Assembly (NCBI GenBank): GCA_016786705.1
Contig: JAEUVV010000013.1
Span: forward strand, 186,001-250,000
Direction of reading: 5' to 3'
Length of the DNA stretch: 64,000 bases
Origin: Taibaiella sp.
GTDB taxonomy: Bacteria; Bacteroidota; Bacteroidia; Chitinophagales; Chitinophagaceae
In this document: piece after piece, positions 26,974 to 32,117 of the stretch
Numbering within the stretch: position 1 is the stretch's first letter
How the letters are laid out: each line of letters starts with the position of its first letter
Made by a program: the position numbers and the translations under genes
Notes under the pieces: model-generated
Database searches by the model: none
What the model saw: the letters and a program-made list of their open reading frames with translations, nothing else
What the model was told of the DNA's origin: nothing

Positions 26974-27001
26974 AAGGCTTTGAGGAATTCCTCAAAGCCT
27001 T
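26974..27001. terminator. Perfect palindrome ending serS-DUF4293 and the facing peroxidase operon
   Basis: AAGGCTTTGAGGAA joined directly to TTCCTCAAAGCCTT, a 28-base perfect palindrome, then TACTTAATTTT. It lies between convergent genes and probably works on both strands. Confidence 0.75.
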
Positions 27002-27026: not shown

Positions 27027-28844
27027 TTAAAACTGTATTTTTTTATAAGAAACGGTATCGGTAAGCGCGCCTATAAAAGCTTCGATATTTTTCTTTTCCT
27101 GCTCGGTAAGCAGCAAAGGATCTCCCGGCAGGGTCTGGTGCTCCAGTTCAAAACCCAATCCTTGTCCGCCGCCCCGGTTATAAAAATCAATCAGCTCCCT
27201 TAAGGTTTTTAAAGAGCCGTTATGCATGTAGGGCGCTGTTACCGCCGCATTGCGTACTGTAGCTGTTTTAAAGGAATAAAGGTGATGCGGCATACCATAC
27301 ACATGGTATTTCCCGGAATCGAGATCCATTTTAGGGTTGATCGTATCATTGCTTTGGGGCACTCCTAATACCTCACTTTCCATCTTCTCATAGTAAGGTG
27401 GGGCAGCACCTGTAAAGGTGGGCATAAAGTGGCAGGTACCACATTTAGCTTTGCCCATAAACAGGTTAAAACCATTGAGCTGCTCCGCGGTCATGGCGGT
27501 TTTATCGCCCTGCATAAAGCGGTCAAATGAGCTGTTGAAGCCACTAAGCGTACGTACATAAGCCGCCAGGGCTTTCTTCACCTCATCAGCGCCTGGCTTT
27601 TTACCGGAGAAAGCCGCTTTATAGGATTTCATGAATGCTTTATCTTTCGCCAGTAAACTCTGGATCTGCTCAAATTTTCCACCCATTTCTTCCGGGTTCG
27701 CGATTACGGCATGCACCTGGTCTTCCAGGAAAGTAATACGGCTATCAGAAAACTGTACGGGTTGATAGGCCGCATTGATCAGGCTGGGCGTATTGCGCAT
27801 CAGCTTTTTCCCGCCAACCAGGCTTTCATTCAGAGCAAGGCCGTCGGTAAAGGCTTTTGAGGGGATATGACAAGTCGCGCAGCTCCTGTTATTAGCCACC
27901 GACAAGCGTTTATCTTCAAACAGTATTTTCCCGAGAGCTGCCAGCTCTTTACTATTCAATTCGGCACCTGCAGGAGCATAAAAAGAAAGATCTATAGCTC
28001 CCGGGCTGAACAAATGCGGGATATTGGCCGGGATGGCCCTGTTGGGCGCCTGGGCAAAAGGTATCTTATGCGCCAGTTGATAATCATATACCAACACACA
28101 AAGCGGGTTGATATAATCCGCTATAAAGGTTGCCCGGTCGAAGCCGTCAAAATCACCCTGGTGTTCCTGTAAATACTGTAATGCCGCCGTGGTAATTTTC
28201 AGCAGCTCACCCGATTGCGGGAAATAATTAAAAAGCTTTTGCGTAGCTTCCAGGCTGGCAATAGCTTCCGGCAAGCTATTGAGCGCTACAGGCGCGTCGA
28301 AGCCGCTAATCCCTTTGGTGATCAAACGATACAAATTCAGCTTTAAGGCGTCCAGGATATTTGTTTCTGTAAATTCAATATTGGCCCCTAAAACTTTTGC
28401 CCTGTTGCAGGCAAAAGCAAGGCCGTCTGTTTCCATTTTTGCCGCCTGCCGGTCTAGCGGCTCTTCGCTGTACACCACTTCTTCCAGCACCTGGAAGCCA
28501 GTTGGCAATATAGGCTCTTCGGGTAAGGAAGGCTCACTTTCAACGAGGTTGGGGCCATTAATTTTCAATGCCGATTCCGGCAGGTGATATTCCACAAATG
28601 CTTCTATGCGCTTGTAATATACCCTGGCTTTCTTAAAATCTTCCTGCAGGCTTGCCTGCCCGGCTCCTGTTGCCAGGTGCTGCTGCATTTGCTGCACACT
28701 ACTGTTCAGGCTATCTACATTCAGGTCATAATAGCGCTTTACCTGTGTTTCTATTTCACTTTTCTTATTGGCACTCATACCTGCCGCCAGTGCCACTACA
28801 GCGCTGGTGAACAGCAGTACTTTTGTTTTTAATTGATGCTTCAT
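27027..28844 (-). CDS. Di-heme cytochrome c peroxidase (MauG/CcpA family) with long N-terminal domain
   Basis: Exported di-heme protein of 605 residues. Two heme c sites are visible: CATCH near residue 320 and CGTCH near 468, within the usual peroxidase core (residues about 280-600), including LFEDKRLSVANNRSCATCH and the C-terminal PYMHNGSLKTLRELIDFY. The first 280 residues, after a signal-like start, form a mostly helical domain of unknown type that standard 330-residue peroxidases lack; an imelysin-like relation is possible but unproven. It removes peroxide with electrons from cytochromes, or acts like MauG on a protein. It is the last gene of an operon with an LRR protein and a PhoX-like phosphatase (9-base gap). 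Confidence 0.88.
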   Translation of the reverse strand: MKHQLKTKVLLFTSAVVALAAGMSANKKSEIETQVKRYYDLNVDSLNSSVQQMQQHLATGAGQASLQEDFKKARVYYKRIEAFVEYHLPESALKINGPNLVESEPSLPEEPILPTGFQVLEEVVYSEEPLDRQAAKMETDGLAFACNRAKVLGANIEFTETNILDALKLNLYRLITKGISGFDAPVALNSLPEAIASLEATQKLFNYFPQSGELLKITTAALQYLQEHQGDFDGFDRATFIADYINPLCVLVYDYQLAHKIPFAQAPNRAIPANIPHLFSPGAIDLSFYAPAGAELNSKELAALGKILFEDKRLSVANNRSCATCHIPSKAFTDGLALNESLVGGKKLMRNTPSLINAAYQPVQFSDSRITFLEDQVHAVIANPEEMGGKFEQIQSLLAKDKAFMKSYKAAFSGKKPGADEVKKALAAYVRTLSGFNSSFDRFMQGDKTAMTAEQLNGFNLFMGKAKCGTCHFMPTFTGAAPPYYEKMESEVLGVPQSNDTINPKMDLDSGKYHVYGMPHHLYSFKTATVRNAAVTAPYMHNGSLKTLRELIDFYNRGGGQGLGFELEHQTLPGDPLLLTEQEKKNIEAFIGALTDTVSYKKIQF

Positions 28845-28853
28845 TACTTGATT

Positions 28854-29777
28854 TTAGAAAACGATATTCGTATTGGGCAAGGCCTGCTTTAAAGCCTTGA
28901 CTTCAGCGGCAGGAATTGGATTACCTACCAGTACCAGGTTACGCAGATGGCTCATTTTATAGAGCGCAGCAGGCAATTTACCGATCTGGTTATAGCTCAG
29001 GTAAATGGACTCCAGTTCTTTTAAGGCACTGATGCTTTCCGGCAATTGTGTCAGCTTATTATTCGTTACAATAATTGATTTGAGCTTTTTTAATTTACCG
29101 ATATTCCGGGGCAGCTGTTCGAGCTCGTTATTCGCCAGGGCCAATCTTTTCAGGCTGCTCATCCGGATCACTTCATCAGGGATCGCTTTCAGCTTATTAA
29201 AAGACAGGTCCATTTCCTGCAAAGCTTTCAGCTTGCCTATTTCCTTCGGCAATACCAATAAACTATTATGATTCAGGTCCAGGATTTTCAATTGGCCCAG
29301 GCTACCGATCCTACTATTTAAGGAAGCAAAATTGTTCCAGGACAGGTCCAGGGTATTTAATTTTTTCAACTTAAAAAGGCCCAAAGGAAGATCCGATAAA
29401 CTATTATTGTCTAACTGCATAAAGCGGACCGACTGCCAGCCTTCAATAGTTTCCGGCAAACTCTTCAAATGATTTTCACTTATGATGACCTGCTCCAGTT
29501 TACTTAACGCGCCGATACTTGCAGGGAGCTCCCGCAGGCTGTTGCTCTTCAGGTCCAGGTAGGTAATGGCTTTCAGGTTGCCGATCTGCTCACTTACTCT
29601 TTCAATTTTAGCTACGCGCATAGAGAGTTTTGTGGCGCAATCTTTATACTCCAGGGCTTCGGGGATCGTCTTGAATACATGTGCGGCACAGTCTATTTTC
29701 CCTTCTTGTGTAAATGCAGAATAGCCTTTCGTTAAAAGAAAGGCTATTACTACACTCATTTTAATGTTGAGTTTCAT
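28854..29777 (-). CDS. Secreted leucine-rich repeat protein
   Basis: A 307-residue protein with a signal peptide-like start (MKLNIKMSVVIAFLLTKGYSAFTQ), a short cysteine-containing cap and about nine to ten leucine-rich repeats of 23 residues (for example LKILDLNHNSLLVLPKEIG and LQEMDLSFNKLKAIPDEVI). Such solenoids bind proteins; no catalytic part is present. It sits in the middle of a three-gene operon, 8 bases after the PhoX-like gene and 9 before the di-heme peroxidase. Spacing implies linked expression. The ligand is unknown; binding one of the operon partners is a speculation. Confidence 0.88.
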   Translation of the reverse strand: MKLNIKMSVVIAFLLTKGYSAFTQEGKIDCAAHVFKTIPEALEYKDCATKLSMRVAKIERVSEQIGNLKAITYLDLKSNSLRELPASIGALSKLEQVIISENHLKSLPETIEGWQSVRFMQLDNNSLSDLPLGLFKLKKLNTLDLSWNNFASLNSRIGSLGQLKILDLNHNSLLVLPKEIGKLKALQEMDLSFNKLKAIPDEVIRMSSLKRLALANNELEQLPRNIGKLKKLKSIIVTNNKLTQLPESISALKELESIYLSYNQIGKLPAALYKMSHLRNLVLVGNPIPAAEVKALKQALPNTNIVF

Positions 29778-29785
29778 TATTCAAT

Positions 29786-31996
29786 TTATTGCTTAATTAT
29801 TTTGCTTTGTAATGTACTACCGTTAACGTTGATCACACTTTGATAAATACCTACCGGTAAATTACCCAGTTCTATCTGGAATTTGTTGTTACCGGTTCTG
29901 ATGGCTCTTTCTTCTGTAAACAGTAATTTACCGTCTACACTATACAGCATCAATTGTGCTTTGCCATTTACCTTACTGCTCAGCTCGATGGTCGCTTTAC
30001 CGGAAGTAGGGTTTGGATAAACGCTTACTAAAGACAGCTCATTGATCCGGCCGATAGAAGTAGTCGTATCAATAGGAGTAGTGGTTGTATCTACGAAGGA
30101 TATGCCTAAGAATTCTTTACGGGCAATTACTACCGCCGCTTCTTTATTGATCCTTACAGTATCACCATTAGCATCGATACCAACGCCATTAGTACCATCC
30201 GGGTGCTGGAAGGAAACAAACATGTATTTGTAGTCAGGAGTAAAGGTCATACCTGTCGGCTCACAACCTGCCGGAGTTACCGCGAACAGTTTAACCGCAG
30301 GATTCGTTTGCGTGTGACAGGGAGGGACCATATAGATGTGGTTACGACCACCATCCTGGAGTACATAAAGGTTACCGGCATCATCAAAAGTCAGGTTATC
30401 TACACCACCGCCCCATTGCTCAGATACGATCGTTCCGTCTTCCATTTCGTAGTTGTAGACAGTTGCTGTATTCCCTACAAAAATCTGCGCTTCACTTACA
30501 GTTAAACCGTCATCCTGGAAACGATAAACGCGGCTGGTAGCTTTTGAAGTAAAATAGATCTTACCATCCAATGGGCTGATCTCAACATCTTCTACCGCAT
30601 TAAAGTTAGTCGCACCTACCGCTTGCGCATAGGTCCTTACATTGTTACAATCTTCAGGGGTGTAGTTAGGAATACCGATCCACTGACCTGTAGTTACAGA
30701 ACCGATAGGACCATCCAGCTTCAATACATATAAGTTACCGGCGCTCATATCCTCTTCATTGTGCGCAACGTATTTCCATACATAACCGTAGGAGCTTTCG
30801 TCTGCGCCTTCATAAACGGTTTTACGGTCAGCCGCAGCCACACAGTTTTCATGGCTCATTCTGCCCATTCCCCAGATCTTATCCGGTGTACCATCACCGT
30901 CATAATCTTTGATCTTTGCGGTTACCGGGTCGATCTCGACCATCCAGCCCACATCCTGGTAGCCGTCACCATTGGCATCCGCGGTCGGTAAGGTTTCTTC
31001 AGAAGTGATGATCGTATTCCAAGGTGTTACGGCTCCGGAACAGTTTCTTCCCGTACCCGCGATACCTCCAAAATCAACCGGCACGCTCTTATCTACTTGC
31101 CATAAGTGAGTAGTATCGTTGAACGCAATATCCAGCATGGAAACACCCGCAGCCGGCCAGCTGCCCAATTCGTGGTTTATCGATAAATAACCTTTTGTAC
31201 TGCTGCTGTCTTTAGGTACATAACCCGTGAAGTCAAACAAACCTTTTACCAAGCCATCAGCAGCATTGGTGTAAGGATCGCCTTCCATAGCGATGATCTG
31301 GTAAGCATGTGTCGGAGGAATACGTAATGTATCTACCTGCACGCCCGGCATTACTGAATAGAACCTGGAAATATGTAAAGAATCCAGCCCTGCATCACAA
31401 ACAACAGGCGGTTTAGGCTCTACATAATCCAGCTTCAGGGCAAAAGAAAGATCAGAGCTGCTGAGGTCGCATTGGTGTATTTCAACCGCAAAGGTATTCT
31501 CACCTAACTGTAAGGCGGATGCAGGAATTGTGTGTAATCTGAAATCGTTTTCCGCAGATGTGTTGGAACTGGCGAAAGTAGTATAAGTGCTTGTAGCAGG
31601 CATATTATCTCTTACTACCTCATTACCGTTCAGGTACACCACGGCACCATCGTCTCTTCTCAGGCTTAATCTTACCACCTGGTTAACCGTAGGTAGCGCG
31701 GTAAGGTTAAATTTAACCCTGAAATAAGTGGTCGTATACTTTTGCTGGCTGTTAGTACCGAAACCTACTATAGTAGCTTCGTCTCCATCACCATAGCCTA
31801 ATTCGGCAGCGCCGCTCACCCAGCTGCTGTCGTTAAAACCTGGAGCGAACCAGGCAGTGCCCTGGTCGGTACCATTGTCCAGGAACTTCCATACCGTTGC
31901 TTCCGGAACGATAGGGGTAATAATGTTCTGCGCCTTTGCATTTAAGCCCAGTCCCATAAGCGCCAGCGCGCCTAACAAGGTAAATTTTTGTTGCAT
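29786..31996 (-). CDS. PhoX-like (DUF839) secreted phosphatase with type IX sorting tail
   Basis: Exported protein of 736 residues. A signal peptide (MQQKFTLLGALALMGLGLNAKA) is followed by a beta-sandwich domain of about residues 30-190 (WKFLDNGTDQGTAWFAPGF, then ELGYGDGDEAT), a DUF839/PhoX beta-propeller of about 200-640 with GYLSINHELGSW and NAVEDVEISPLDGKIYFTS, and a type A sorting tail from about 655 (VSVYPNPTSGKATIELS). PhoX enzymes are calcium/iron alkaline phosphatases, usually Tat-exported; here a Sec signal and type IX tail are used. Phosphatase activity is inferred. First gene of the operon with the LRR protein and di-heme peroxidase. Confidence 0.85.
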   Translation of the reverse strand: MQQKFTLLGALALMGLGLNAKAQNIITPIVPEATVWKFLDNGTDQGTAWFAPGFNDSSWVSGAAELGYGDGDEATIVGFGTNSQQKYTTTYFRVKFNLTALPTVNQVVRLSLRRDDGAVVYLNGNEVVRDNMPATSTYTTFASSNTSAENDFRLHTIPASALQLGENTFAVEIHQCDLSSSDLSFALKLDYVEPKPPVVCDAGLDSLHISRFYSVMPGVQVDTLRIPPTHAYQIIAMEGDPYTNAADGLVKGLFDFTGYVPKDSSSTKGYLSINHELGSWPAAGVSMLDIAFNDTTHLWQVDKSVPVDFGGIAGTGRNCSGAVTPWNTIITSEETLPTADANGDGYQDVGWMVEIDPVTAKIKDYDGDGTPDKIWGMGRMSHENCVAAADRKTVYEGADESSYGYVWKYVAHNEEDMSAGNLYVLKLDGPIGSVTTGQWIGIPNYTPEDCNNVRTYAQAVGATNFNAVEDVEISPLDGKIYFTSKATSRVYRFQDDGLTVSEAQIFVGNTATVYNYEMEDGTIVSEQWGGGVDNLTFDDAGNLYVLQDGGRNHIYMVPPCHTQTNPAVKLFAVTPAGCEPTGMTFTPDYKYMFVSFQHPDGTNGVGIDANGDTVRINKEAAVVIARKEFLGISFVDTTTTPIDTTTSIGRINELSLVSVYPNPTSGKATIELSSKVNGKAQLMLYSVDGKLLFTEERAIRTGNNKFQIELGNLPVGIYQSVINVNGSTLQSKIIKQ

Positions 31997-32117
31997 GATA
32001 TGTTTTTAGGTTAACGTTGCAAAAGTGCCGCTTGAATGTTAGCAAAACGTTACCGTACCATGAACATATAATTACAATTCTCTGACAAATTAAAAACAAA
32101 ACAGATATCAGGATACG

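Follow-up and report, generated by a model that had tools for sequence, protein, structure and literature searches.

A long di-heme peroxidase with a predicted EfeO/imelysin-like domain is usually encoded beside secreted phosphatases of varying family across Bacteroidota

Why would a long di-heme peroxidase be encoded in one operon with a secreted phosphatase? The question is raised by a 64,000-nucleotide stretch of the Taibaiella sp. genome (assembly GCA_016786705.1, contig JAEUVV010000013.1, positions 186,001 to 250,000; hereafter the window), in which three minus-strand open reading frames (ORFs), transcribed in the order PhoX-type phosphatase, leucine-rich-repeat (LRR) protein and long peroxidase (PER), occupy window positions 31996-27027 (-) with intergenic gaps of 8 and 9 bp. 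An earlier note, made from the sequence alone, had called these genes an operon, and the short gaps on a single strand bear this out. Throughout Bacteroidota, PER is usually encoded beside a secreted phosphate-releasing enzyme whose family varies, which suggests a general helper under phosphate scarcity. We think, with moderate confidence, that PER works in the periplasm, where it activates secreted phosphatases by oxidation.

PER loci were taken from three samples: 20 from genomes of the same order, picked by eye among the matches listed (the haem-part fragment L081 was excluded); 62 found by searching 395 Bacteroidota genomes (60 with the domain), after exclusion of five of 67 rows (three from genomes already in the order-level set, one identical copy and one second piece of a gene); and 80 named records, the best 80 of at least 581 confirmed stretches. 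Genes were called naively as longest ORFs, and two Hymenobacter loci (L145, L147) were assigned by six-frame search. By six-frame search, 148 of the 162 PER loci also hold a secreted phosphohydrolase within the fetched stretch; the gap between the nearest frames has a median of 44 bp, is within 510 bp in 90% of cases and reaches 5428 bp at most (L125). When counted by gene order before the six-frame search, and without L214, whose PER lies at a contig edge, a phosphohydrolase stands within three genes of PER in 146 of 161 loci (17/20, 54/62 and 75/79 in the three samples), and at 111 of these 146 the partner gene immediately precedes PER on its strand, no more than 150 bp away. Around 22 single-domain di-heme peroxidases, drawn from order-level relatives only (19 stretches), none has a phosphohydrolase within three genes (0/22), and the distant genes of the PER loci include 2 phosphohydrolases among 931, one of which is the L145 partner misplaced by the gene caller.

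The partners belong to unrelated Pfam families. PhoX-like proteins account for 119 (80 of a remote, 17 of a middle and 22 of the window type), proteins resembling purple acid phosphatase (PAP-like) for 15, and PF04185 proteins for 14. The GDNxY motif, whose Tyr we take to be an iron ligand, is present in 16 of 16 PAP-like proteins. On a PER tree of 156 sequences (FastTree, SH-like support only; partner labels from the gene-order assignment), at least five changes among PhoX, PAP-like and PF04185 partners are found. All 14 PF04185 loci cluster together (support 100) within a 45-row group (support 99), whose other members are 30 PhoX loci and one unassigned locus. A Mesonia locus whose partner is PAP-like (L221) falls in a 31-row group (support 97) otherwise made up of 27 PhoX loci and three unassigned. 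Because partners have switched at least five times on this tree, the pairing of PER with a phosphatase persists even when one partner fold gives way to an unrelated one.

What kind of protein could serve such different partners? The earlier note had seen no recognisable domain in the approximately 280 extra N-terminal residues of PER; this was mistaken, and profiles and a structural model both point to an EfeO/imelysin (M75-like) fold. A profile of the N-termini of 18 PER relatives matches the EfeO-family protein Algp7 (E 1.5e-4), and a profile of 79 PER N-termini matches Algp7, EfeO and EfeM at E 1.4e-4 to 4.1e-4. The NCBIfam EfeO model is matched by 5 of the 18 relatives, far below its cut-off, and a PDB search with the single PER N-terminal sequence gave nothing useful. 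An AlphaFold2 model of PER (79 sequences, mean pLDDT 94.4) was re-compared with the 420 chains ranked highest by Foldseek: the N-terminal part, about residues 16-265, superimposes on Algp7 (3at7) with Z 25.2 over 226 residues at a root-mean-square deviation (rmsd) of 2.3, on EfeO (7wgu) with Z 25.2, on EfeM (7q1g) with 24.7 and on an imelysin-like protein with 23.8. The model thus has the two-bundle helical fold, at Z 23.8 to 25.2 to 3at7, 7wgu, 5y4c, 7q1g and 3pf0. The idea that the N-terminus is a new domain was dropped in view of these profile and structure matches. Because the two halves of the model match Algp7, EfeO and EfeM on one side and 6e1c, MauG and BthA on the other, PER is read as a fusion of an EfeO-like domain with a di-heme domain of MauG type.

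An EfeO-like domain would suit an iron chaperone, in which this domain binds iron, the di-heme domain oxidises it and PER loads Fe3+ into PhoX and PAP-like enzymes. The fold is that of EfeO and EfeM, a link between imelysin and peroxidase is known from a passage mentioning a small group of imelysin-peroxidase fusions (PMC3143127), and most partners belong to PhoX and PAP, which literature passages describe as iron-dependent families, the PAPs having tyrosinate-iron. The ligand positions argue otherwise. For EfeM, a passage of PMC9174327 proposes Tyr82, His126, Glu129, Glu189 and Asp190 as Site III ligands, and Glu90, Glu93, Glu97, Asp103 and Asp107 as Site IV ligands. In the profile alignment, EfeM Glu90 (the first Glu of ExxE) corresponds to Lys78 and His126 (the His of HxxE) to Gln118 in 79 of 79 PER sequences, so that PER lacks the HxxE and acidic ExxE ligands of EfeO/imelysin (M75) proteins. 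Asp103 corresponds to PER position 91, mostly Thr, Val or Ser, and Asp190 to position 184, mostly Ser or Thr; Asp107 aligns to a gap, which leaves its equivalence unsettled. Other acidic positions are kept, Glu93 as Glu81 (73/79), Glu97 as Glu85 (55/79), Glu129 as Glu121 (74/79, with Asp in 5) and Glu189 as Asp183 (79/79). The alignment suggests that the metal site has been remodelled around a buried-site lysine. Iron binding of the plain EfeO kind is thereby made less likely, although metal may still be bound. Given these replacements and the existence of PF04185 partners, the iron chaperone seems to us very unlikely. The combined task proposed in the earlier note stands in part: an extracytoplasmic, phosphate-related role is supported, whereas metal handling is weakened by the replaced ligands of the EfeO-like domain.

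The C-terminal part of PER matches Pfam CCP_MauG (residues 300-448, 147.9 bits), and its model matches 6e1c, which we take to be MbnH, with Z 33.5, MauG (3l4m) with 29.2 and BthA with 27.6. All 79 PER sequences compared have both CXXCH histidines, Gln376, Glu386 and Tyr555. In alignment Tyr555 falls on a Tyr in 6e1c and, judged from end coordinates, on MauG residue 294; the canonical peroxidases 1iqc and 2c1u have Met at this position. Two CXXCH motifs together with a Tyr at the axial-ligand position of the second haem, in 79 of 79 sequences, place PER in the MauG/MbnH/BthA group; a passage of PMC6405878 gives Tyr-His haem ligation as a mark of MauG and BthA. Within this group PER scores below the cut-offs of both MbnH TIGR04039 (195.6 vs 362.85 bits) and MauG TIGR03791 (157.1 vs 443.85 bits). 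Where canonical enzymes have their inter-haem Trp, PER sequences vary, with Tyr in 38, Trp in 22 and other residues in 19 of 79; the window PER has Ser366 there, as located by spacing. Gln376 and Glu386 are likened to BthA Gln267 and Glu277 from their equal spacing of ten.

The MauG-type haem residues would also befit a classical MauG-like maturase that builds one protein-derived cofactor at one fixed PhoX residue, a hypothesis that a passage of PMC8812569 states for Flavobacterium PhoX, and partner oxidation is likewise proposed for BthA in a passage of PMC6405878. However, unrelated Pfam families have replaced one another as the partner of PER, making a fixed residue in one fold an improbable target, and we regard such a maturase as decidedly unlikely. 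Since the same helper family accompanies unrelated phosphatase folds, oxidation should instead aim at a property that they share, for instance an active site that is ferric or can be oxidised, rather than at a fixed residue of a single fold.

The window PhoX matches PF05787 at 146.6 bits (cut-off 24) and is the one such match in its own genome. Its C-terminal tail matches Por_Secre_tail PF18962 (42.4 bits, cut-off 27) and TIGR04183 (36.9 bits), both above cut-off, in agreement with the earlier assignment of this phosphatase to type IX secretion (T9SS). The structural model superimposes on Pseudomonas fluorescens PhoX (4a9v) with Z 27.5 over 382 residues at rmsd 3.5 (residues 199-630); the list of structures consists mostly of general propellers, with PhoX first by a clear step (27.5 and 27.2 vs 21.8), and the model has a middling mean pLDDT of 70.7, its first 200 residues being poorly modelled. 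Cys319 is equivalent to the iron ligand Cys179 of PhoX, and this Cys is kept in 119 of 120 PhoX-like proteins, with one gap. Ala467 occupies the position of the catalytic Arg385 (numbering from a literature passage), whose equivalent is found in none of the 22 window-type proteins (one has Lys) and in 97 of the 98 other PhoX-like proteins. The window protein is filed as a PhoX-like subtype because it lacks this Arg.

The borders between the PhoX subtypes, 300 and 60 bits, were set by us. Iterated PhoX-like profiles converged at 120 proteins, and Pfam confirmed representatives of the classes. Among ten PER neighbours of about 500-650 residues scanned with Pfam, four match PhoX and six have no match at E 0.01, so the remote class rests on the iterated profiles. 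This remote subfamily comprises 81 of the 120 proteins, which mostly adjoin PER, have about 500 residues and often lack a Pfam match (L082-L097, L154-L170 and others); a simple pattern finds a lipobox-like start in 65 of the 81. One of two neighbouring Glu positions is Gly or Ser in 79 of 81, and two further ligand columns are not alignable in this type.

The N-terminal domain of the window PhoX (31406-31948, residues about 17-197) recurs with 38-45% identity in large PAP-like phosphatases, which adjoin PER in related genomes (L066_5, L067_5, L069_8); one accessory domain is thus fused to two unrelated phosphatase folds. A 1256-residue protein with phytase-like, PhoX-like and Ig-like domains and a T9SS tail is encoded upstream of a long PER in another locus (L077:4799-8569).

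The LRR gene follows the PhoX subtype: it is present in 20 of the 22 loci with window-type PhoX and in none of the 140 other PER loci. The trio that the earlier note had singled out is therefore conserved in relatives, with window-type PhoX, LRR protein and PER in 20 of the 162 PER loci, from several families. The hosts are four genomes of the window's genus, Lishizhenia, Pedobacter, four Hymenobacter, a Cesiribacteraceae strain, Aequorivita and eight others. Four of the five genomes of the window's genus that were examined have the trio; in the fifth (G003) the neighbour of PER is instead a PAP-like phosphatase. The trio had also been considered peculiar to the window's genus, a view that was dropped: the LRR gene is limited to one PhoX subtype, but this subtype spans several families. 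The window LRR protein matches LRR_8 at 112.8 bits and, judged by eye, has a putative signal peptide; Pfam and NCBIfam scans gave no match to a T9SS tail. Its NCBIfam matches (28857-29777) to type III effectors (XopAC and others) lie far below cut-off and reflect shared LRR repeats only. A further trio is carried by a Hymenobacter sp. NBH84 plasmid (L276, 37385-49115), annotated as PhoX, LRR protein and cytochrome c peroxidase. The plasmid is typed as non-mobilizable. Transposase genes adjoin the trio, and the record's annotation places a Na/Pi symporter and a phosphonate-degradation gene close by; the region is a candidate phosphorus-acquisition island.

How would such an operon be regulated? 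Upstream of it the window carries TAACGTTTTGCTAACATT at 32035-32052, part of a Pho-box-like array (Table 1). Exact TAAC pairs at 11-bp spacing occur in 16 of 122 upstream regions of phosphatase-PER operons versus 9 of 1512 other upstream regions (p 4e-13), and when up to one mismatch is allowed TAAC-N7-TAAC is found in 71 of 122 versus 167 of 1512 (p 4e-32). One-mismatch pairs show further peaks at spacings 22 (70) and 33 (44), other spacings from 6 to 32 giving 13-37 of 122. The operon set is somewhat richer in TAAC at many spacings, and related sequences occur in both sets, so the p-values do not describe independent events and the periodicity is the evidence. The exact motif TAACNTTNNNNTAACNTT has two sites in the window's own genome versus 3 for a backward control, and so this pattern alone proves nothing; the second TAACNTTNNNNTAACNTT site lies, in our reading, upstream of a PHP-type phosphatase gene. 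PstS was not found in this genome by TIGR00975. pstC served instead, in 80 genomes of the phylum, and stretches around 30 pstC genes (L246-L275) contain 13 exact TAAC sites with 11-bp spacing, spread over 9 of the 30 loci and including one palindrome counted on both strands. Spacing 22 gives 6 sites, and no other spacing between 6 and 35 gives more than 5 (5 at 10 and 33). The TAAC direct repeat with 11-bp period is thus a candidate Pho box of Bacteroidota; a search of the open-licence literature for such a box found no fitting paper.

Taken together, these features would fit the following course of events. Phosphate starvation would induce the operon through the PhoB-type upstream repeat. PhoX would be exported to the periplasm and matured there by PER, after which type IX secretion would bring it to the surface. 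The EfeO-derived helical domain of PER may dock or position the client phosphatase, and the MauG-type haem pair, with its Tyr-His haem and Gln/Glu peroxide pocket, would oxidise it, either bringing the active-site iron to the ferric state or modifying a residue near the active site. The LRR protein might be an extra subunit or binder specific to the window PhoX subtype. In its full form this proposal is tentative, and we view it with more doubt than confidence: a fold-blind activator, made of an EfeO domain that once bound iron and whose metal site was remodelled by an invariant Lys and Gln, and of a MauG-type haem pair, would dock phosphatases of at least three unrelated folds in the periplasm and switch them on by oxidation before they reach the surface. 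This would be a step in phosphate acquisition throughout the phylum, with the LRR protein added for the PhoX subtype whose catalytic Arg has been lost.

Several points weigh against this activator. We know of no use of iron by PF04185 enzymes, and a literature search gave no support for iron in them. A passage of a review describes PlcH as insensitive to chelators. A common ferric site is for these reasons unproven. Phosphatase activity is likewise unproven for window-type and remote-type PhoX, because the former lack the Arg385 equivalent and the latter have a changed Glu and two unplaced ligand columns. Fourteen PER loci lack a phosphohydrolase. In eight of them the contig ends at PER or no more than about 330 bases from it, upstream of PER in L113, L127, L128, L143, L193 and L214 and downstream in L080 and L140; five have full flanks (L070, L079, L105, L107, L191), and in L142 about 960 bases upstream of PER contain no phosphatase gene. 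Conversely, three window-type PhoX genes (L036, L039, L040) have neither PER nor LRR within 1.5 kb on either side, and their genomes have no full-length PER among the matches listed, so the helper is not always needed. Two of these solitary proteins have a readable motif, one with Arg and one with Gly at the Arg385 site. Finally, where F. johnsoniae PhoX was inactive in a foreign host, the relevant passage offers misfolding or mislocalisation as the first explanation (PMC8812569).

Both the five full-flank loci without a phosphatase neighbour and the window-type PhoX without PER would be expected if PER and the phosphatases were regulon mates only, with PER serving another need of phosphate starvation (peroxide removal, or iron released with phosphate) and adjacency arising from shared PhoB control, as the Pho-box-like repeat would also allow. 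Regulon membership does not readily predict that PER stays beside a phosphatase through at least five changes of partner fold, and we judge this explanation unlikely.

Should these phosphatases depend on a dedicated haem enzyme for their activation, the inactivity of Flavobacterium PhoX in a foreign host would be explained, heterologous expression of such phosphatases would need the partner gene, and MauG-type enzymes would gain a general role. The swapping of partner folds makes the oxidation target testable, as whatever PhoX, PAP-like and PF04185 clients share. Bacteroidetes are described as prominent in phosphorus mobilisation around roots (PMC8115612), and it is a main starvation-induced phosphatase of these bacteria, Flavobacterium PhoX, that showed no activity in a foreign host (PMC8812569).

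The features of the locus are collected in Table 1. A terminator-like hairpin lies between the operon and the convergent gene; it is weak evidence for a terminator, since shuffled sequences give 6.9 such sites and 7 were observed.

Table 1. Features of the PhoX-LRR-PER locus in window coordinates
Feature	Position	Strand	Basis
PhoX-type secreted phosphatase, 736 aa, first gene	29786..31996	(-)	ORF, Pfam and model
PhoX beta-propeller domain, residues about 205-630	30107..31384	(-)	Profile alignment and structure match
T9SS C-terminal sorting domain, residues 659-734	29795..30022	(-)	PF18962 and TIGR04183 above cut-off
LRR protein, 307 aa, second gene	28854..29777	(-)	ORF and Pfam
PER, long di-heme peroxidase, 605 aa, third gene	27027..28844	(-)	ORF, Pfam and AlphaFold2
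Predicted EfeO/imelysin-like helical domain of PER, residues 26-265	28050..28769	(-)	Profiles and model; Lys78 and Gln118 replace metal ligands
MauG/MbnH-type di-heme domain of PER, residues 298-597	27054..27953	(-)	CXXCH 322-326 and 468-472, Gln376, Glu386, Tyr555
Pho-box-like array upstream of operon	32016..32052	(-)	TAAC 32049-32052 and 32038-32041 (11-bp period), CAAC 32016-32019 (22 bp further)
Terminator-like hairpin, 12 pairs, between operon and convergent gene	26974..27001	listed on +	Consensus scan only

The earlier note knew of no description of the trio. For its LRR member, a full-text search of the open-licence literature found no fitting paper among the matches listed (10 of 11), and "leucine-rich" and "LRR" are absent from the main texts of PMC8812569 and PMC8115612. 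The pairing of peroxidase and phosphatase, by contrast, is in print, for Flavobacterium (PMC8812569, PMC8115612) and for a relative in Burkholderia (PMC6405878). Passages of PMC8812569 report phoX in an operon with a MauG-like peroxidase in all Flavobacterium genomes and no detectable activity of F. johnsoniae PhoX made in P. putida, for which the absent MauG-like operon partner is named as one possible reason; a passage of PMC8115612 reports strong induction of both genes by phosphate depletion. Low-phosphate induction, which is published for the Flavobacterium pair only, and the cofactor or maturation hypothesis had thus already been stated for this operon in these two papers. Neither PMC8812569 nor PMC8115612 uses the words imelysin, EfeO or purple acid in its main text, and that of PMC6405878 contains none of PhoX, Bacteroid-, imelysin and EfeO. 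As far as these papers and the open-licence literature searched show, the swapping of partner folds, the identity of the PER domains, the link to the LRR gene and the Pho-box-like repeat are new.

The Flavobacterium operon (Fjoh_2478-Fjoh_2477) resembles that of the window in combining a PhoX-like protein, there a lipoprotein, with a MauG-like c-type peroxidase, and Flavobacterium loci (for example L154, L155 and L168) fall within the same PER family; unlike the window, they have no LRR gene, and their PhoX is of the remote subtype that keeps the Arg385 equivalent. The window PhoX shares with P. fluorescens PhoX (3zwu) the propeller fold and the Cys and Glu metal-ligand positions, but differs in having Ala467 for Arg385, an extra N-terminal domain and a T9SS tail; characterised PhoX enzymes are exported by Tat, according to a literature passage. 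The N-terminal part of PER shares its predicted helical fold with EfeO, EfeM and Algp7 (7wgu, 7q1g, 3at7; Z 24.7 to 25.2), whereas two metal-ligand positions are replaced throughout and the domain is fused to a di-heme domain. The best structural matches of the haem domain, MbnH-type 6e1c and MauG 3l4m, likewise have a Tyr at the axial position; PER differs from them in scoring below both NCBIfam cut-offs, in its clients and in its N-terminal domain, which the aligned chains lack. A parallel in arrangement is BthA, a Tyr-His di-heme enzyme with a similar haem-domain fold (Z 27.6) whose gene, according to a passage of PMC6405878, always adjoins that of a putative secreted purple acid phosphatase in Burkholderia; a secreted phosphatase gene stands beside the peroxidase gene in the same manner at 148 of 162 PER loci. 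In sequence PER matches BthA weakly (E 4.5e-12), and BthA is not among the matches of the PER N-terminal profiles. Passages of the BthA paper name one partner fold, whereas the partners of PER span three.

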